Shown: piece after piece, positions 9,552 through 20,101 of the stretch
How positions within the stretch are numbered: the first letter of the stretch is position 1
Layout: the number at the start of each line of letters is the position of its first letter
Assembly (NCBI GenBank): GCA_019894795.1
Contig: JAGXNV010000002.1
Span: forward strand, 1 to 50,432
From: Candidatus Heimdallarchaeota archaeon
GTDB taxonomy: Archaea; Asgardarchaeota; Heimdallarchaeia; Heimdallarchaeales; Heimdallarchaeaceae
Direction of reading: 5' to 3'
Length of the DNA: 50,432 nucleotides
Notes under the pieces: generated by a model
Told to the model about the DNA's origin: nothing
The model's input: the letters and a program-made list of their open reading frames with translations, nothing else
Database searches by the model: none
Program-made: the position numbers and the translations under genes

Positions 9552-9644
9552 TTAAATAGGATGATAAACTCTTATCAAAAACTTTTTCCTTCCGATTCAT
9601 AAAACATTTAAAGATTTGTGTTCCAAATCATTTAACGAAGCCCA

Positions 9645-10241
9645 ATGACTAACTTCATCCAAAGAACATCTCAGACAATTCGCAGAAAGCTTGGCTATCC
9701 AGAGACATCGATACTGGTTATGGGTAACAATCTTCCCGCAACACGTAACCGTGTTTTGCTTATGCGTTCTAATACTTCCTTAAATGAATTTATCATTGAC
9801 AGTTGCTTGAATGAGCTTCCATACACTGAGAAACTTAAATTTAAACCAAAGCAATTTAATCCCTTTGAAGGCATTCTCTATCTCATTGACGCAACAAAGG
9901 AGGAAATGATTAAACATGAACGTAATTATTTCTGGGAGAAAATTATTTGGGACGAAACAGTTGAAGATCTTCCAATTGCTGTTTGTGCTTATAACACTAA
10001 TCTACAAGGAGCTTTGACTAGAGGCGAATTAATAGAAACTATGTCTCTCATACGTTTAACAGATCGTATTTGGAACCTCTTTGAAGTTCCAGATGTAGAT
10101 TCATTAGTTGGCTCTCTAAAATGGATGAAAAAAATAATCCACATGGGTTATATCAAACCTTGGGCGGAAAAAGAACAATTATTAGAAAAAATACAACCTA
10201 TTCAAGTTCAATTTCCTTCAGAAGAAGAAAATAATCAATAA
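9645..10241 (+). CDS. Arf/Ras-like GTPase-fold protein lacking P-loop (pseudo-GTPase)
   Basis: 'GILYLIDATKEEMIKHERNYFWEKIIWDETVEDLPIAVCAYNTNLQGALTRGELIETMSLIRLTDRIWNLFEVPDVDSLVGSLKWMKKII' parallels the Arf C-terminal half (…VFVVDSND…LLVFANKQDLPxA…GLDWL); no GxxxxGK[ST], NKxD replaced by NTNL. Confidence 0.6.
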   Translation: MTNFIQRTSQTIRRKLGYPETSILVMGNNLPATRNRVLLMRSNTSLNEFIIDSCLNELPYTEKLKFKPKQFNPFEGILYLIDATKEEMIKHERNYFWEKIIWDETVEDLPIAVCAYNTNLQGALTRGELIETMSLIRLTDRIWNLFEVPDVDSLVGSLKWMKKIIHMGYIKPWAEKEQLLEKIQPIQVQFPSEEENNQ

Positions 10242-10258
10242 AATAAGAGGAATGTACA

Positions 10259-11806
10259 ATGACAATTTCAATTGAAAAAATAATGAAGGATGGATACTCA
10301 GGTTATTCAGTTCGTTCAATACTGATGAATCCAGAATTCCGAGATAGAGTTTCTAAAGACGTCACAGTTCGTGGTAATGAAGGTGGGAAAAACCTTGTAA
10401 TGGATAAACTAGCTGTTGGTGGAAAAGTCTTACTTACTGGTCCAACTGGTGAAGCTAAAACTCTTTTTGCAAGAGTCTTGCTTGACCATATTGTTAGAGA
10501 AATTAACAATTTCAAATATCATATAGGTGGTTGCCCCTTCTTAGAAGATGCAGGATATATCGTTGACATCATTAACAATTTCCAATCTAATCCTTTTGCA
10601 GGAATTAGAGTTATGCAATCTCTTTGCCCTTATTGTAGACAAAAAATCGAGAAAATTCTATCAGATGGAGAAAGCTCCGTACAATTAGATAGTACCAATA
10701 GTATTCTTGAAATCTCTCCAAAAGAGATAGTAAGCAGATTGGGAAAACTAGAAACTACAAAAACAATAGTTAGAAGAGCACAGCTTGATCCAAGAAACGA
10801 TCCTGAAAGTCTCTATATGTTGCTTGCAGGTGTTGAGAACTTAGAAGAGTTATTTGGTAAAGAAACTCAAACTACCTACGCTGCTACTTCACACAAAGTA
10901 GGAGTTCTTTCGCATGGTATACTAGTTGTAAATGAAATTCAAAGACTTCCACTAACCCTATTAGAATCTCTAATGGGTTTTCTAGAAGAACCAATGGGTA
11001 TCAAATATAACATACAAGGAGAACCAGTCTATATCGATGGAGCAGTAATCTTTACTTCTAACGCACCTTTGACAGTTTTTGGTGAAGAAAGTCAGCCTAT
11101 CATCAATCGTATTCCTGAAGTACTTTGGCCAGCACGTTCTGTTGAAAGTAGAGAACAGATTATACGTGATATGTTTGAAGAGCAAATAGTGCTATCAAGC
11201 AAGAAAATCACAGCTAATCCTTCTATAATTCAATTACATGAATTAGGAAAAGAAACAACAGATTTTGTTAGTAGACTTGCAGTAGGCTTTCTAGCATATC
11301 TTGGAAACAATTCATTACCTTCAAGCTTAAAAGCAAAGGATGTTCGTTCAGAAAGTCGCATGGCTCGTACGGATTTCTATTCTGGTCTCGACGAAATCCA
11401 CGATCCACAAAGAAATCCTCACATTGACTTACGTACCATGAACAATATCATCGGTGAGACAGTACTCTTGCAAGCCAGAGAAGTTGATACAGATATCAAT
11501 GTTATAACTTTAGAAAAATTGCGAAGTACAATTAATGCTTACGATGTACCCGTTTCAATGTTAAATGATGCTCTTCAACAGATTAAAATTCTGTTAAGAA
11601 CCTCAATAAAAGAGTCTGAAGTTTCAATAAGTGTCCAAGATATATCTGAAGATATTTCAAAAATGAAAGCACTCAGTGATGAGGAACTGGCTGATTTAAT
11701 TGTAAAATTTGAAGGTTTAGACAAATACAAAGATAACGTTAGAACAGAAATAATTGAAAGTCTAAAATCATCTTACGAGCAATTATTAAGAGTAGATTAC
11801 ATCTAG
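10259..11806 (+). CDS. MoxR/magnesium-chelatase-like AAA+ ATPase with Cys-containing insertion
   Basis: Walker A LLTGPTGEAKTLFARVL, Walker B-like GILVVNEIQRLPLTLLESLMGFLEEP, sensor-1 AVIFTSNAPL; insertion HIGGCPF...LCPYCRQK. Confidence 0.87.
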   Translation: MTISIEKIMKDGYSGYSVRSILMNPEFRDRVSKDVTVRGNEGGKNLVMDKLAVGGKVLLTGPTGEAKTLFARVLLDHIVREINNFKYHIGGCPFLEDAGYIVDIINNFQSNPFAGIRVMQSLCPYCRQKIEKILSDGESSVQLDSTNSILEISPKEIVSRLGKLETTKTIVRRAQLDPRNDPESLYMLLAGVENLEELFGKETQTTYAATSHKVGVLSHGILVVNEIQRLPLTLLESLMGFLEEPMGIKYNIQGEPVYIDGAVIFTSNAPLTVFGEESQPIINRIPEVLWPARSVESREQIIRDMFEEQIVLSSKKITANPSIIQLHELGKETTDFVSRLAVGFLAYLGNNSLPSSLKAKDVRSESRMARTDFYSGLDEIHDPQRNPHIDLRTMNNIIGETVLLQAREVDTDINVITLEKLRSTINAYDVPVSMLNDALQQIKILLRTSIKESEVSISVQDISEDISKMKALSDEELADLIVKFEGLDKYKDNVRTEIIESLKSSYEQLLRVDYI

Positions 11807-11842
11807 AAAGGCATCTACTAGTACCCTAATGGAGATAATAAC

Positions 11843-13228
11843 ATGCCCCACCGAATAAATTTCATCACAGCGGAAGAATTCACTGATCCGATTCAGCAAT
11901 ATGGTGATGTGGAGTTCATCTTAGATTTTGAGGATGCAGCTCAAGTTCTGAGGTTATGGCGTAACCCACACTTAGGACGAAGCTCTCGTGAAGGAGCTGT
12001 TCTTTCACTTGCAGCTAAAAATGCTGTAGCTATGGAGAACATAGTTCAAAAGATAATGACCACCTATTTAACAGCTCAACAAGAGGAACGCCTGATAAAC
12101 GAGCTCAAACTCTTGCGTTTCATGGGTGATAGGATTCTTCCAGACGTTTTGGAAAGAGTAAACCGCAACGAACTTCAAACCCTTGAAGAGATTCTTAAGT
12201 ATATTCAAGACCTTCTTCGTAATCTCAAATATGAAGGGTCTGTTGATTTAGATCAGCTTGCTGAGAAACTCAACCAATTACAAGAGATAATTGATATAGA
12301 AATAACGGATGCTTTTGGTCGAAAGAAAAGAATATCACGAGAAAGTGTTATGGATTTACTTGGGAAAATTCTTGGACGCTTTCTACTAAAACAAATTTCT
12401 GTAGCACCTATAGATGAAGTGCAAAAGAGACCTAGAGGTACAATTAGACTCAGAGAAACATACAAGAGTGCTATTCTTAGTTCCCAGAATATTCCACCTA
12501 CATCAGTTAAACAAGAGGATATCGTTAGGGTGAAAAAAGATAGACGATCACTTGTGTATCTTATCGTAGATATGAGCCAATCAATGAACAAGGCTGTTTT
12601 TGAAGGTAAAATGTCAAGACTGGATGGGGGTCTTCTTACAAGTTTAAGTTTATATTATTACTTCAAGATAATGAACAGACGAAAAAGGAAAAGATTTGAC
12701 ATGTTTAAACTTGCTGTAGTTCCTGTTAGACAGAACCCAACTGTTGTAGACGACGATAGTAAGATGGAAAACTATCTTCTTACTGCTGAAGCAAGAGGTA
12801 AAACTTACATGGTTCAAGCAGTTCAAACAGCAATTGAACATGCAAAGAAACAGCATACTGATAAAAACATTGATGTATATTTCACTATTGTTACAGATGG
12901 TATGCCTAATGTGCCTATATTTCCATATAATTATCGAAAGAATACAGATTTACAGAAGTACTTCTCAGAAATTCAAACTAAAACAAGACCAGAGACTATT
13001 GATTGTTTGATTCAACTTAATGGTATCTTTAAACATCTTAAGAATGAACGGACAAGAAACTGGAACATCTCTTACTTCCTTATGGGCACAGAATCTTTGA
13101 GAAATAAGGAAATTTTTCTCCATACTAAACAGATGCTGAAAGGCATAACACGACCTATACTTATTGATCCAGCTCAAATAAAGAGGCTAGGAGAACAGAT
13201 CCTAAGGGAGAGTCTAATACATGCTTAA
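11843..13228 (+). CDS. von Willebrand factor A (vWA) domain protein
   Basis: MIDAS DMSQS in LVYLIVDMSQSMN, downstream GKTYM Thr and IVTDGMPN Asp; immediately follows MoxR-like ATPase. Confidence 0.87.
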   Translation: MPHRINFITAEEFTDPIQQYGDVEFILDFEDAAQVLRLWRNPHLGRSSREGAVLSLAAKNAVAMENIVQKIMTTYLTAQQEERLINELKLLRFMGDRILPDVLERVNRNELQTLEEILKYIQDLLRNLKYEGSVDLDQLAEKLNQLQEIIDIEITDAFGRKKRISRESVMDLLGKILGRFLLKQISVAPIDEVQKRPRGTIRLRETYKSAILSSQNIPPTSVKQEDIVRVKKDRRSLVYLIVDMSQSMNKAVFEGKMSRLDGGLLTSLSLYYYFKIMNRRKRKRFDMFKLAVVPVRQNPTVVDDDSKMENYLLTAEARGKTYMVQAVQTAIEHAKKQHTDKNIDVYFTIVTDGMPNVPIFPYNYRKNTDLQKYFSEIQTKTRPETIDCLIQLNGIFKHLKNERTRNWNISYFLMGTESLRNKEIFLHTKQMLKGITRPILIDPAQIKRLGEQILRESLIHA

Positions 13229-14801
13229 GATAAAAACAGAATTTGATGAGATTGTGCGAGTTTACAACCTTGCAAGAAATGATTTTAAACATCTTGTAGG
13301 AGCCACTCCTGAAAATTATCGTGTATTACTCTTCGTTGATCCAGATCTCCACGTTTCTGTTAATAGAGTTGTGGAAATTACAGGAACACCTCAAGCTATT
13401 CTAACTGCTGAGCAAATTACTCATCTTAAATCTGCACGCATAAATGATTTCTTACCTACTGGAAAGGAAACTATTTACAATTCCCTTCCAACTCTCATTT
13501 ATCTTTCTGCTCCTTCTTATGAGTTAAACAAAGAAGAAGAATTTACTCTTAGAGTGATGTTCATCCATGCTTTTGCTCATGCATACATGAACGAGAAAAC
13601 TGAATCCAATTCAGCACGAACCCTTTCAAGGCTCTATCAAATTGATATTGTTCTTAAAGAATTGATGACAAATAACGTATTTCAATTAAATAAAGAATCA
13701 GCTGATGGTCATGCTTGGGCTTGGCAATATTTCCAAGATCTTATCGGTGTAATCCGCTTATTCACTGAGTCAAATGTAGAAGATTTTTATACTCCTCCTG
13801 AAATTGCGCGAAAATACACTTTATTCAACAATTTCTCGATTGAAGCGATTAATTATTTATCTGAAAGAGCAAAAGTTTCCAGGAAAAAACACCTCCACGA
13901 ACTAATCGATGAAGGTTTTGCCCACTATGTACAAGCAAAGGGGATCGAATATCTAGTAGAATCAGGCGATTATGAGTTCAAGAAGTCAGATGAGGATAAA
14001 GAACCAAAACTTCCAAATGAATTGAAAGCATTTTTAGCTCCTCCTATCGGTGAGTTTAGTTTAGCCGTAATAAAGAGACTAGCAAGAAAAATTGAGAATG
14101 AAGAGGAGTTATTCAATAAATTGTTCAGTTACAAATCTGATTATGAATTATTGGAAGAATTTACTTGGGATGAAGTAAAAGATATGCTCGCTGTTAACAA
14201 GAACCTTCACTCTGAAGGTGTAGTAAATAAATGGCATTCCTCAAAAAGTAGATGGACTGATATCTGGTCTGTTTATGCTTATGGTTGGCGAATTATTGAA
14301 GAATATACTAGAAAAATACATCGAAAGAAATTTTCTACATTTGGTCAATTGCAAGATGACAAACCAAGAATAGAATCAAAAGGATACGTGAAGGTTGATC
14401 AAAAGAAAGTTTATGTCTTTGAAGTCAACGATAATGGAATTGGTATAGATCAACTTGTAATCCTACATAATCATATGGCTCTCTATAGAGATGATTTTAA
14501 AACGATTCTTCCTGCTTTTGCTGACGTTATAGTATTCAAAAAGATTGGTGGAATTCATGTTTCAACTTTATTTGCAGTTCATAAAACCAAACATCAACCA
14601 CTATCTCCCTATAATTTACCTGTAGTAACTAGAGCTGTTCAAGTTACTAAAAGAAAAGATGCTTATCAGTTTGATTTAGATGAAGAATCAGAAGATAAAG
14701 TTGATGTGAGTGATGTAGATTATACTTATTTACGCAAATTAACGCAACCTCAAAGAGGAGCTATTGCATATCTAATAAAAGAAGGGATGTTTGAACTATG
14801 A
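13221..14801 (+). CDS. Uncharacterised protein, degenerate gluzincin-like metallopeptidase core
   Basis: 'FIHAFAHAYMNE' (HxxxH lacking the catalytic Glu) and 'ELIDEGFAHYVQAKG' (E-G-[FL]-A-x-Y-V third-ligand motif); overlaps upstream vWA gene by 8 nt. Confidence 0.5.
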   Translation: MLKIKTEFDEIVRVYNLARNDFKHLVGATPENYRVLLFVDPDLHVSVNRVVEITGTPQAILTAEQITHLKSARINDFLPTGKETIYNSLPTLIYLSAPSYELNKEEEFTLRVMFIHAFAHAYMNEKTESNSARTLSRLYQIDIVLKELMTNNVFQLNKESADGHAWAWQYFQDLIGVIRLFTESNVEDFYTPPEIARKYTLFNNFSIEAINYLSERAKVSRKKHLHELIDEGFAHYVQAKGIEYLVESGDYEFKKSDEDKEPKLPNELKAFLAPPIGEFSLAVIKRLARKIENEEELFNKLFSYKSDYELLEEFTWDEVKDMLAVNKNLHSEGVVNKWHSSKSRWTDIWSVYAYGWRIIEEYTRKIHRKKFSTFGQLQDDKPRIESKGYVKVDQKKVYVFEVNDNGIGIDQLVILHNHMALYRDDFKTILPAFADVIVFKKIGGIHVSTLFAVHKTKHQPLSPYNLPVVTRAVQVTKRKDAYQFDLDEESEDKVDVSDVDYTYLRKLTQPQRGAIAYLIKEGMFEL

Positions 14802-15571
14802 GTATTATACACTTCTTAAAAGGACTAAGTATGGGTCGGAAACTACAGAGTCATGAACCTTTAGATCGTGCTCATTTTGCACTATTTCAACAGATCAAGG
14901 GAAAAACTAAAACAGTTGGTAAACTTCTTCCTCTATTACAAGATTCTGATTGGAACGTAAGGAACGCTGCTGCTTCATCTATAATCTTCCTTGCTTCCAA
15001 ATATCCTGAAGCAAAGGATGAGGTTCTATCGCATTTACACAACATTGTGGAAACAAGTTCTTTATCCATCAAGCTTTCGATTTTGGAAATAATTGGGAAA
15101 CTCAAGCATTATGATTCTAAACCTTATCTCGTTAAGATACTTGAGGACAGTGGTTACGATTTGCAATATGCAGCAATAAGAGCTATTGGCTATTTAGACG
15201 ATGTTGACGTTCTATATCCTCTCAAAAACGTTGTATATGTCAAAGATTACATAACAAGACGAGCTGCTTTGCTTTCAGTAATTAGAATAACTAACTCTGT
15301 AAATGAGGATGAAATATTAGCGAAACTAACCCCCCACATTCATCTGATAATTGAATCTTACATTGAATTAAATAAGTTAGATGAAGTTATGCTAAAAATA
15401 CTAGATTATGGAGACGAAGAAGCTTTCCCAGATATGAAGGGGTATTCAGAATCTGAAATTGTAAAACTTGAATCACTTATAGAAACTAAAGATTATAGTG
15501 TGGAAATGTATCAAAACTTTGCAAAATTAATTTATCCTACATATTTCCCCATTGTAGAAACTTTGGAATAA
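14798..15571 (+). CDS. HEAT-repeat protein
   Basis: LLPLLQDSDWNVRNAAASSIIFLA / LVKILEDSGYDLQYAAIRAIGYLDD / VKDYITRRAALLSVIRI repeats; ATGA overlap with upstream gene. Confidence 0.8.
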   Translation: MSIIHFLKGLSMGRKLQSHEPLDRAHFALFQQIKGKTKTVGKLLPLLQDSDWNVRNAAASSIIFLASKYPEAKDEVLSHLHNIVETSSLSIKLSILEIIGKLKHYDSKPYLVKILEDSGYDLQYAAIRAIGYLDDVDVLYPLKNVVYVKDYITRRAALLSVIRITNSVNEDEILAKLTPHIHLIIESYIELNKLDEVMLKILDYGDEEAFPDMKGYSESEIVKLESLIETKDYSVEMYQNFAKLIYPTYFPIVETLE

Positions 15572-15580
15572 ACAGATAAT

Positions 15581-15828
15581 CTAATTTTCAATTTTTTTAG
15601 CACAGTATTCAACAAAGTCCTTTTTTATTCCTTTTGCTTTTTCTTCTCCTTTCCATTTCTTCCATACATATTCGCACACTTCTTCAAGAATAGATGAAAA
15701 CACGTAGTCACAAGAGTATATCCCATCATTCGATCATGAATTAGGCGTGAATCTAAACTACTCAAAGCCCTACTAAGATGAGGATGTTTATTTTTGATAT
15801 TTTTTTGGTTTTTGTATGGATTTTTCAC
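15581..15828 (-). pseudogene. Frameshifted small conserved-looking ORF
   Basis: Minus strand: MKNPYKNQKNIKNKHPHLSRALSSLDSRLIHDRMMGYTLV, then after a frame change ...VFSSILEEVCEYVWKKWKGEEKAKGIKKDFVEYCAKKIEN* (stop at 15581-15583). Confidence 0.45.
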
Positions 15829-16331: not shown

Positions 16332-18314
16332 TTGAAGATGCCTTTAGATATAAAAACCGCGATGAAACCTAGGGGAGATCAACCCAATGCTATAAAACAA
16401 CTTGTAGACGGAATCAGTAAAGGAAATAAATTTCAAACACTTCTAGGGGTTACTGGTTCTGGTAAAACTGCAACAATATCTTGGGTTATTGACAAAATTA
16501 AGAAGCCTACCTTGATCATTGGCCCTAACAAGACTTTAGTTGCTCAGCTTTTTGGTGAATTCAAGACTTTTTTCCCATCTGCAAGTGTCAATTACTATGT
16601 CTCCTTTTATGATTATTATCAGCCCGAAGCCTACCTTCCTTCGAAGGATATGTATATTGAGAAAGATGTAGATATCAATGAGGAAATTGAGCGGCTTCGA
16701 CATACGGCTTTAGAAGCCCTTGCCACTCGTGATGATGTAATTGTTTGTGCATCCGTTTCTTGCATTTATGGTACTGGCCCTCCTGAATTATATCGTTCAA
16801 ACCGAATAAGCCTTAACATAGGTGATAGTATCGATAGACAAAAATTAATGCTTGAGCTTGTCAAAAATCAATATCAGCGTAATGATGTTGCACTATCTCG
16901 TAAGTGCTTTAGGGTTCGAGGTGATTCTATTGACATCTTTCCCTTATATGGAGATTATGTATACCGTATAGAATTTTTTGGAGATGAAATTGAGCGATTA
17001 ACTGCTCGTCATCCTGTTTCAGCAGAGAAACTTAAAGAATATGAACACTTGTCAATCTTTCCAGGAACACAATATCTAGCTAACGATGCTTACTTTGAAA
17101 GCGCTTTAGAGGATATATCTGTTGAGCTTGATATGCGTTTAGCTGAACTAGAGAAAGAAGAAAAAGTAGTAGAAAGACATCGATTAAAGCAAAGAGCGCT
17201 CTACGATTTAGAGCTGTTAAGGGAAACTGGTTCTTGCCCCGGTATTGAAAACTATTCTAGACATTTTGATAGAAGAAAACCAGGCGAACAGCCTTTTACA
17301 CTTCTTGACCATTTTCCAGAAGATTTTCTCCTAATTATTGATGAATCACATTTGACAATCCCTCAAGTGAGAGGTATGTATGGAGGAGACCATTCACGTA
17401 AGAAGAATCTGATTGAATATGGTTTTAGACTCCCCTCCGCAGCAGATAATCGACCGTTTAAGTTTGATGAATTCAGTGCTTATATGAAAACCGCCATTTT
17501 TACAAGTGCTACTCCAGGTCCTTATGAATTTGAAGTTTCAAATCAAGTTGTCGAACAAATTATACGCCCTACAGGACTAATTGATCCAAAAATAGATGTA
17601 AGAAAAACCAATGGGCAAATAATTGACTTAGTAAGCGAGATTAATCAACGGACAAGTCAAGGTGAAAGAGTATTGGTTACAACATTGACTAAAAAAAACG
17701 CCGAAACTTTATCAGATTACCTGCTAGATATGAAGATCAAATCCGTTTATCTTCATCATGAGGTGAATACTTTGGAAAGAATTGAAATCCTCCGCGATCT
17801 ACGTTTAGGCAAATATGATGTTGTTGTGGGTATTAATCTTCTACGTGAAGGTTTAGATTTGCCAGAAGTAGCTCTAGTTGCTATCCTTGATGCAGATAAA
17901 GAAGGCTTTCTGCGTTCACGAAGCTCATTAATACAGTTAATGGGTCGGGCTAGCAGAAATGTTCATGGAAGTGTTATTCTATATGCAGACAATCTAACTG
18001 GTTCTATGAAGGCGGCTATTGCTGAAAATAATCGCAGAAGAAGAATTCAACGGGATTACAATAAACAACATGGAATCAAACCTACTACAATTAGAAAGGA
18101 AGTTAAATCAATAGTAGAGCATTTAATGCAGATTACTCCAAAAGAAGAAGAGAAAATCGAAGTACCCAAAGACCTTACAAAAGAAGATCTACTATATGTT
18201 ATTGAGGATTTAACTGGTCAAATGGCAGAGGCTGCTGGAAAATTAGATTTCGAAAAAGCTGCACTTTTTCGTGATAAAATTAGAGAACTAGAGAAATTGG
18301 TGGAGAACAGATGA
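16332..18314 (+). CDS. uvrB: Excinuclease ABC subunit B
   Basis: RGDQPNAIKQLVDG, GVTGSGKTATISWVI, YYQPEAYLPSKDMYIEKD, LREGLDLPEVALVAILDADKEGFLRS, C-terminal UVR motif; likely true start ATG 16338. Confidence 0.97.
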   Translation: MKMPLDIKTAMKPRGDQPNAIKQLVDGISKGNKFQTLLGVTGSGKTATISWVIDKIKKPTLIIGPNKTLVAQLFGEFKTFFPSASVNYYVSFYDYYQPEAYLPSKDMYIEKDVDINEEIERLRHTALEALATRDDVIVCASVSCIYGTGPPELYRSNRISLNIGDSIDRQKLMLELVKNQYQRNDVALSRKCFRVRGDSIDIFPLYGDYVYRIEFFGDEIERLTARHPVSAEKLKEYEHLSIFPGTQYLANDAYFESALEDISVELDMRLAELEKEEKVVERHRLKQRALYDLELLRETGSCPGIENYSRHFDRRKPGEQPFTLLDHFPEDFLLIIDESHLTIPQVRGMYGGDHSRKKNLIEYGFRLPSAADNRPFKFDEFSAYMKTAIFTSATPGPYEFEVSNQVVEQIIRPTGLIDPKIDVRKTNGQIIDLVSEINQRTSQGERVLVTTLTKKNAETLSDYLLDMKIKSVYLHHEVNTLERIEILRDLRLGKYDVVVGINLLREGLDLPEVALVAILDADKEGFLRSRSSLIQLMGRASRNVHGSVILYADNLTGSMKAAIAENNRRRRIQRDYNKQHGIKPTTIRKEVKSIVEHLMQITPKEEEKIEVPKDLTKEDLLYVIEDLTGQMAEAAGKLDFEKAALFRDKIRELEKLVENR

Positions 18315-20101
18315 GTCTGTTATCCGATTTAGAATCTTTACCACTAGAACCTGGTGTTTACTTAATAAAGGACAAGGATGAAAAAATCGTATATGTTGGT
18401 AAAGCAAAAAACATTCGAAATAGAGTGAAACAACATTTTCAACCTACACACGATTCAAAGGAGGATAAATTACAAGAACTAGCCAATAGAATAGACTGGG
18501 TAATAACTAGAAATGAATCTGAAGCTTTGATTTTAGAAAAGAAATTAGTAAAACAGCTTTCCCCAAAACTAAATAGCCAACTGAAAGATGACAAATCTCA
18601 CCTTCTAATTCGCTTATCTTTGGAAGAAGAATATCCTCAATTTCTAATCGAGAGAGAAACTGATTCTCGAGTCCCAAAGAGTGTCTACTTTGGTCCTTTT
18701 ACTAATGACACTATGCTTAAACAGACTGCTAAACTAGTTCTGAAACTTTTTCCTATATGCAATTGTGGCAAATGTAAAGAACAAACCAGAAAAAGTAAGG
18801 CACCTCTTCGTTGTATGAGAGAACGATTGAGAAGGTGTTTGGCTCCCTGTTTGAATGATATCTCTCCTGAAGAATATGGAAAAACTGTCAAGAATGTGGT
18901 TGCTTTTCTGAAAGGAGACGTCGCTGATTTGCTGGATAACCTTGAGAAAGAAATGTGGGTAGCATCTGAACAATCAAATTTTGAAAAAGCAGCTAATCTG
19001 CGTGATTTAGTTCAAGCTGTTTATACTATCCTAAATATACAAGAAGATTTACACTCAAAGAAGAAGAACGTTGCATTGTTAGCATTCAAAGAAGAGGGCA
19101 AAATAATCTCATTTTGCAAACTGGAAATTCGTGAACACCGAATTCATAATATTAAGACATTTATTTATGATGAGGAGGAAGACATGCTAAATCTAGGCGA
19201 AGTTTTAACCTATATCTATGGTATAGAAAAACCAAAGCACAAAATCCAAGTGAGCGATAATTTTATTCTCCGATTCAAGAATGATATTAATTTTCCTGTG
19301 TTAACCATTAGAGGCAATACAGCTAAGCAATTGAACATTATTGCAGAAAAGAACGCAAATACTGAAATGAAGAAATACTTGAGAGAACTAAAATATCACG
19401 AGGATTCCGAGACTGTTTTGGAGGAGATGAAAACCATCTTAGGTTTAACGGAGACACCTGAAATTATACACGGTTTTGACATATCTACATTAAAAGGACA
19501 GCATTCTGTTGGTTCTTGTGTTGTCTTTGCTAATGGTAAACCAAAGAAAGATCTCTATCGACGATTTCGAATTAGAAAAGAATATTCTGATTCTAATGAT
19601 TATGCTATGATGAAAGAAGTAATATCGCGAAGATATAAATCTGAAACACTTAAGAAAGATCCTATTCCTAATCTGCTAATAATAGATGGCGGGAAAGGAC
19701 AGTTAAGTGTTGCAATTAAAGTACTTAAAGAGTTACATTTGAGTATTCCATCAATAAGCATCGCAAAGAAAAATGAAGAAATTTTCGTAGAAAACCAAGA
19801 TGAACCTATTGTACTTGAACAGAGATCAACAGTTTTACGTTTAATTCAGTACGTTAGAGATGAATCCCATAGATTCGCTATAAACTACCATAAGAAACTC
19901 AGAGAAAAATCTGTAAAACGAACAATCTTTGAGGATATCAAAGGAATTGGTAAGAGTAAGGTTCAAGCTCTATTTCATGAATACAAGAGTATACAGGAAA
20001 TCGCAAATTCTGAAGTAGCAAAAATGCAGAAGGTTTTAGCTGTAAATGAAGAAATAGCTATTCAAGTTATAAACATGGCTAAAAAAGTTCGCGTGGAATA
20101 A
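18311..20101 (+). CDS. uvrC: Excinuclease ABC subunit C
   Basis: GIY-YIG: LPLEPGVYLIKDKDEKIVYVGKAKNIRNRVKQHF; CMRERLRRCLAPC; UVR motif; HhH at C-terminus; 4-nt overlap with uvrB. Confidence 0.96.
   Translation: MSLLSDLESLPLEPGVYLIKDKDEKIVYVGKAKNIRNRVKQHFQPTHDSKEDKLQELANRIDWVITRNESEALILEKKLVKQLSPKLNSQLKDDKSHLLIRLSLEEEYPQFLIERETDSRVPKSVYFGPFTNDTMLKQTAKLVLKLFPICNCGKCKEQTRKSKAPLRCMRERLRRCLAPCLNDISPEEYGKTVKNVVAFLKGDVADLLDNLEKEMWVASEQSNFEKAANLRDLVQAVYTILNIQEDLHSKKKNVALLAFKEEGKIISFCKLEIREHRIHNIKTFIYDEEEDMLNLGEVLTYIYGIEKPKHKIQVSDNFILRFKNDINFPVLTIRGNTAKQLNIIAEKNANTEMKKYLRELKYHEDSETVLEEMKTILGLTETPEIIHGFDISTLKGQHSVGSCVVFANGKPKKDLYRRFRIRKEYSDSNDYAMMKEVISRRYKSETLKKDPIPNLLIIDGGKGQLSVAIKVLKELHLSIPSISIAKKNEEIFVENQDEPIVLEQRSTVLRLIQYVRDESHRFAINYHKKLREKSVKRTIFEDIKGIGKSKVQALFHEYKSIQEIANSEVAKMQKVLAVNEEIAIQVINMAKKVRVE

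Follow-up and report, generated by a model that had tools for sequence, protein, structure and literature searches.

The window analysed here, a stretch of 50,432 nt from the 3.07-Mb MAG of a Heimdallarchaeia-type Asgard archaeon, carries on its forward strand five genes that we designated A to E. Gene A (9645..10241, 198 aa) was assigned as an Arf-derived pseudo-GTPase on the basis of the Pfam Arf profile, a PDB profile comparison and the fold match of an AF2 model, and gene B (10259..11806, 515 aa), on Pfam matches and motif columns, as an AAA+ ATPase of the Sigma54/AAA_5/Mg-chelatase group. Gene C (11843..13228, 461 aa) encodes an N-terminal helical region and a C-terminal vWA domain with a complete MIDAS, gene D (13221..14801, 526 aa) is an orphan with a predicted multi-domain fold and degenerate HAFAH/EGFAHY motifs, and gene E (14798..15571, 257 aa) encodes a HEAT-repeat protein recognised by its HEAT_2 match. 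The initial annotation had described five co-directional, tightly spaced open reading frames, and both the coordinates and the gaps were reproduced exactly: the inter-gene distances are +17 nt (A-B), +36 nt (B-C), -8 nt (C-D) and -4 nt (D-E).

Inspection by eye revealed two candidate transcription signals on the same strand. A TATA-like element, ATTTAAAGA (TTTAAA), lies at 9605..9613, about 35 nt 5' of gene A, and could serve as the operon promoter, and the T-rich tract AATTTTCAATTTTTTT at 15584..15599, 3' of gene E, could mark the end of transcription. Scans of the window for sigma-70 promoters and stem terminators were uninformative, the host being an archaeon. For all five genes, every pairwise dN/dS value that could be obtained fell between 0 and 0.19. 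Thus, genes A to E are real and under strong purifying selection, with E evolving faster than the other four in the majority of these pairs. Directly 3' of the cassette (window positions 16332-20101) there are genes for bacterial-type UvrB and UvrC, which are also found near the cassette in the sister genera (L047, L048, L049).

Distribution and gene order in Asgard genomes

When B and D were each searched across 228 Asgard genomes, both were present in 40 of them, full-length or split between contigs, and always in single copy. In one further genome, G058, B was represented only by a 34-residue piece at a contig edge, and D was found without B in no genome. The co-occurrence of the two genes gave a Fisher p of ~6e-44, a value that is descriptive only, as shared ancestry is ignored. 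B was detected throughout its own genus (with the exception of one incomplete MAG), in two sister genera, in three other families of the same order (f2, f3 and f4) and in f7, another family of the class; D follows the same genome list. The 228-genome search yielded no B in families f5 and f6 or in other classes beyond weak partial matches; the additional weak matches to the B profile (E ~1e-4) spanned about 65 residues and belonged to different frames of ~315 aa. The B protein is 83-94% identical to proteins of Candidatus Heimdallarchaeota archaeon and 68% identical to that of Ca. Heimdallarchaeum endolithica.

Gene order was judged in the 20 loci that were complete enough. The anticipated conservation of all five genes as neighbours in related genomes held in full for B-C-D-E, which were contiguous and on one strand in 20/20 loci, with C-D and D-E overlapping end to start in most of them, and it held in part for A, which was located directly 5' of B in 15 loci and elsewhere in the remaining five genomes. 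In three of these (G006, G038 and G039) A is unlinked, in G040 it is divergently oriented about 1.8 kb from the cassette, and in G031 a more degenerate candidate lies about 5-7 kb downstream. The cassette order is common to two lineages between which D is only ~37% identical, and the cassette is nearly universal within the families that carry it. The best reading of these observations is that the cassette is chromosomal, vertically inherited and single-copy. A mobile or viral origin was rejected, as viral contigs contained no relatives and no phage relative was significant.

The flanks, compared by eye, contain UvrB/UvrC, NUDIX and dehydratase genes in family f1 and other genes in other families, and no flanking gene conserved across families was seen. 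In f4 a ParB-like/SerK-like gene (also identified by eye) recurs beside the cassette (L066:3515-4225, L067:9058-9789, L053:6420-7196), sometimes joined by an FKBP-like gene (L066:4220-4852, L067:8356-8994).

Motifs and predicted folds of the five proteins

The A protein of the window matched Pfam Arf with an E-value of 3.6e-5, and 13 of the 16 A members matched the same family (best 6.5e-9). In the comparison of the A profile with Arf/Arl proteins in the PDB, Arl1 was matched at E 1.5e-11 over residues ~66-164, that is, in the C-terminal half of A. The AF2 model of A, which is of moderate confidence (pLDDT 71), had as its top fold matches the Asgard ArfR GTPases HodArfR1 (8oul; Foldseek E 6e-8, TM ~0.6), the best of all, and GerdArfR1 (8oun). 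Judged by profile and predicted fold, A is truly Arf-derived. Unlike the ArfRs, it is missing the nucleotide-binding motifs: the GK[S/T] of the P-loop GxxxxGK[ST] is absent in 16/16 aligned members, NKxD is replaced by YNTN, YNAE or PNTS, and the unlinked copies of f2, f3 and f4 likewise have no P-loop. In the canonical Arf paralogues of the class, by contrast, GLDxAGKT and NKQD are retained. The motif columns therefore bear out the earlier designation of A as an Arf-like pseudo-GTPase, with every GTP-binding motif gone in all lineages examined. The invariant residues of A cluster in the segment LTxxEIIExLSLIRLTDRxW, which by alignment with Arf corresponds to alpha4-beta6. Another group of Arf-like genes in these genomes (L047:3488-4426, L158, L159, L160) has an intact P-loop fused to a C-terminal domain of ~130-150 residues, and in Heimdallarchaeum endolithica one of these fusion genes precedes the cassette by about 5 kb.

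Among the 21 B members, Sigma54_activat and AAA_5 were each matched in 20 and Mg_chelatase in 13, with individually weak Pfam matches (best 1.6e-5), and this pattern places B among the AAA+ proteins of the Sigma54/AAA_5/Mg-chelatase group. It had earlier been labelled MoxR-like. This label was not upheld: the MoxR profile AAA_3 gave no match to B at E<=1e-3, while it matched four other loci of the same genome, and AAA_3 was not among the families matched by the 21 members. Walker A is intact, with K67-T/S68 in 21/21 sequences, the sensor-1 Asn and R284 are invariant, and candidate arginine fingers are present. In Walker B, which reads [VI]VNE (hhVVNE) in 21/21, the Glu is retained and the Asp is replaced by Asn. 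Because of this replacement, B may bind ATP but hydrolyse it slowly, weakly or not at all. B also contains an insertion with three cysteines, C92, C123 and C126 (window ~10532-10636), which are conserved except in genus g10 (L053, L067, L070), which lacks the whole set; in the same genus A is located outside the operon. The set-wise loss of the cysteines would suit a dispensable metal site in B.

The vWA domain of C was recognised as VWA_2 in 15/17 members and as VWA_CoxE in 4/17. It is preceded by a conserved N-terminal region, and its MIDAS is complete, with D243-S245-S247, T321 and D352 invariant in 17/17 sequences. The proposed pairing of an AAA+ protein with a MIDAS-bearing vWA protein is supported by these residues and by the AAA+ motifs of B. 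Gene E, conserved across lineages, matched HEAT_2 at E 1.2e-13 in the window, in agreement with its description as a HEAT-repeat protein.

Gene D has the character of an orphan family. When the 21 members were compared with Pfam at thresholds as lenient as E 10, nothing recurred beyond a match in three members at E 0.013, and sequence comparison with the PDB gave no meaningful match. The AF2 model, built from 21 sequences, reached a pLDDT of 80 and a pTM of 0.83; it matched no PDB fold below E 0.1, and its comparison with one viral-protein model gave an E of 4e-4 at a TM of only 0.28. The term degenerate metallopeptidase, used for D in the initial annotation, was not supported. The catalytic Glu of HExxH is absent in every lineage, and HxxxH, at best H[AS][FL]AH, is patchy: the paired histidines (HAFAH, EGFAHY) are found in f1, f3 and f7 and are replaced in f2 and f4, with Tyr, Gln, Lys, Arg or Met occupying the His positions in lineages without the pair. 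A relationship of D to SpoVR was rejected as insignificant in the profile comparison, and so was one to the metallopeptidase-like DUF2201_N, for which hhalign paired the HxxxH regions at an E of only 0.07. It is possible that D represents a degenerate zincin. Degeneration is also seen in DUF2201_N (PF13203) itself, a metallopeptidase-like vWA protein of the class. Its members in f4 (L162, L163, L165-L169, L171, L174) have an HLVLH-type motif instead of HExxH, L161 (f6) retains HETLH, and G038 carries two adjacent copies.

Function of the cassette and its relation to known systems

We consider it somewhat probable that the cassette encodes one ATP-driven AAA+/vWA machine for protein remodelling (maturation or activation), similar to NorQD and CbbQO and equipped with three non-catalytic adaptors. 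A single machine is favoured by the invariable order of B-C-D-E in the 20 loci, the co-occurrence in 40 genomes, the retention of A after its relocation, the invariant motifs and the low dN/dS values. A point against it is that conserved operons can encode separate functions; moreover, since A is unlinked in some genera, it could be a regulator and not a subunit. The missing AAA_3 match of B and its Walker-B Asn also count against this reading, as do the distributions of COX1 and RuBisCO, which do not track the cassette. By analogy with NorQ/NorD, B and C most likely form the remodelling motor. In that system a finger of the vWA protein reaches into the AAA+ pore, and a twisting motion driven by ATP has been proposed to open up the client so that metal can be inserted (PMC13036017); the Walker-B Glu and the MIDAS are essential for client activation (PMC9976466). 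We infer a physical complex in which B would assemble an AAA+ ring, C would dock on this ring via its vWA domain and offer the metal site of its MIDAS to an acidic residue of the client, and D and the HEAT-repeat protein E would constitute a client-specific or scaffolding arm. A, having lost nucleotide binding, would provide a fixed module for protein interactions, in which the conserved alpha4-beta6 face is probably the contact surface.

The Arf ancestry of A also admits a reading in which the machine belongs to membrane or Arf-pathway biology: fixed by the loss of nucleotide binding, A would recruit the machine to membranes or compete with true ArfRs for a shared partner. ArfRs are reported to have a nucleotide-sensitive N-terminal amphipathic helix and to localise to membranes (review PMC12554972), they are the closest structural relatives of A, the AF2 model predicts an N-terminal helix in the window protein, and canonical GKT Arfs exist in the class. 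We nevertheless regard this reading as unlikely, as the A proteins of f7 start with MFKR(T/Q)KPPKH, an N-terminus too short for an amphipathic helix, and no conserved membrane-protein gene was seen by eye adjoining the cassette. It is rather unlikely, too, that the cassette is a cofactor- or metal-insertion chaperone that, in the strict sense of NorQD, CoxDE or ChlID, serves a single lineage-specific metalloenzyme, with D as the metal- or client-binding subunit. The AAA+/MIDAS-vWA architecture, the VWA_CoxE matches of C, the Mg_chelatase matches of B, the conserved Cys triplet and the paired His of D in f1, f3 and f7 would all suit such a chaperone. However, the cassette is retained where the Cys triplet (g10) or the His pair (f2, f4) is gone, and no conserved enzyme gene was seen beside it by eye. 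COX1 and RuBisCO were also excluded as obligate clients, as f1 and f7 carry the cassette but no COX1, and f7 has no RuBisCO either.

That the five genes are merely co-transcribed and share no machine appears very unlikely. The unlinked position of A in some genera agrees with this explanation, but the order is kept across the divergence of the D proteins and A is retained genome-wide after relocation. Least probable of all, in our estimation, is a role in anti-viral defence or another biological conflict of the vWA-MoxR type. The cassette shares the general vWA-MoxR theme of the systems described in PMC7159879, yet its single-copy vertical inheritance and near universality within families speak against such a role, no effector swapping was seen, and PADLOC returned no specific family, the only matches being weak AAA and HEAT look-alikes.

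The single remodelling machine, if it exists, would be of interest in two respects. Asgard archaea possess many small GTPases, and a cellular role is known for few of them. Here an Arf relative without GTP-binding motifs is tied by a deeply conserved operon to a specific ATP-driven machine, which places an Asgard Arf-family member in a concrete protein context outside membrane traffic that is open to testing. AAA+/vWA machines are known mainly from bacteria and organelles, and the cassette would add to them an archaeal branch with new partners. In line with the earlier impression that no named system has exactly this composition, none was found for Asgard archaea or Heimdallarchaeota in open-access full text, and the cassette may, as far as this literature goes, be new among AAA+/vWA systems. 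We put forward more tentatively the idea that it represents a new AAA+/vWA class confined to Heimdallarchaeia, in which a GTP-stripped Arf, from the family that gave rise to the eukaryotic Arfs, would be a dedicated partner, together with D of a fold outside the PDB.

Several known systems resemble the cassette in part. PrkA (YeaG)/YeaH/SpoVR (YcgB) likewise combines a P-loop ATPase, a vWA protein and a protein with HxxxGH and NEG motifs, but a kinship suggested by motifs seen by eye in B and D was rejected, the comparisons giving E-values of 0.011, 0.075 and 0.003 with probabilities <10%. Within the class, matches to PrkA and SpoVR above the cut-off were confined to one genome. The SpoVR gene of a related genome (L089, G054:C578) contains an in-frame intein-like insertion with a LAGLIDADG-like stretch, at the junctions ...DAYC–VAPHHKV... 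and ...MHN–CAVG.... RavA/ViaA of E. coli is likewise a pair of AAA+ and vWA proteins, and the Walker A of RavA aligns with that of B; the profile alignment of B with RavA is limited to 22 residues around this motif, and that of C with ViaA is insignificant.

The MoxR-vWA ternary systems share with the cassette an AAA+ protein, a vWA protein and one or more further components. The initial annotation had referred to a vWA-MoxR-GTPase conflict module, which does not agree with the published description: the third components are VMAP, iSTAND and others, and GTPase-centric systems form a separate class. The ternary systems occur mainly in bacteria, spread laterally and diversify their effectors, and the description makes no mention of Asgard archaea (PMC7159879). 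Pfam and PADLOC detected no VMAP- or iSTAND-type domain in the cassette. NorQ/NorD and CbbQ/CbbO resemble it in having a single-AAA+ protein adjacent to a larger protein, in which an N-terminal region is followed by a C-terminal MIDAS vWA domain. They differ from it in that B has no AAA_3/MoxR match and carries the Walker-B Asn and the Cys insertion, and in that the cassette includes three extra partners and has no client gene alongside. The ring-plus-adaptor logic of NorQ/NorD and CbbQ/CbbO is nevertheless likely to be common to the Heimdallarchaeia cassette.
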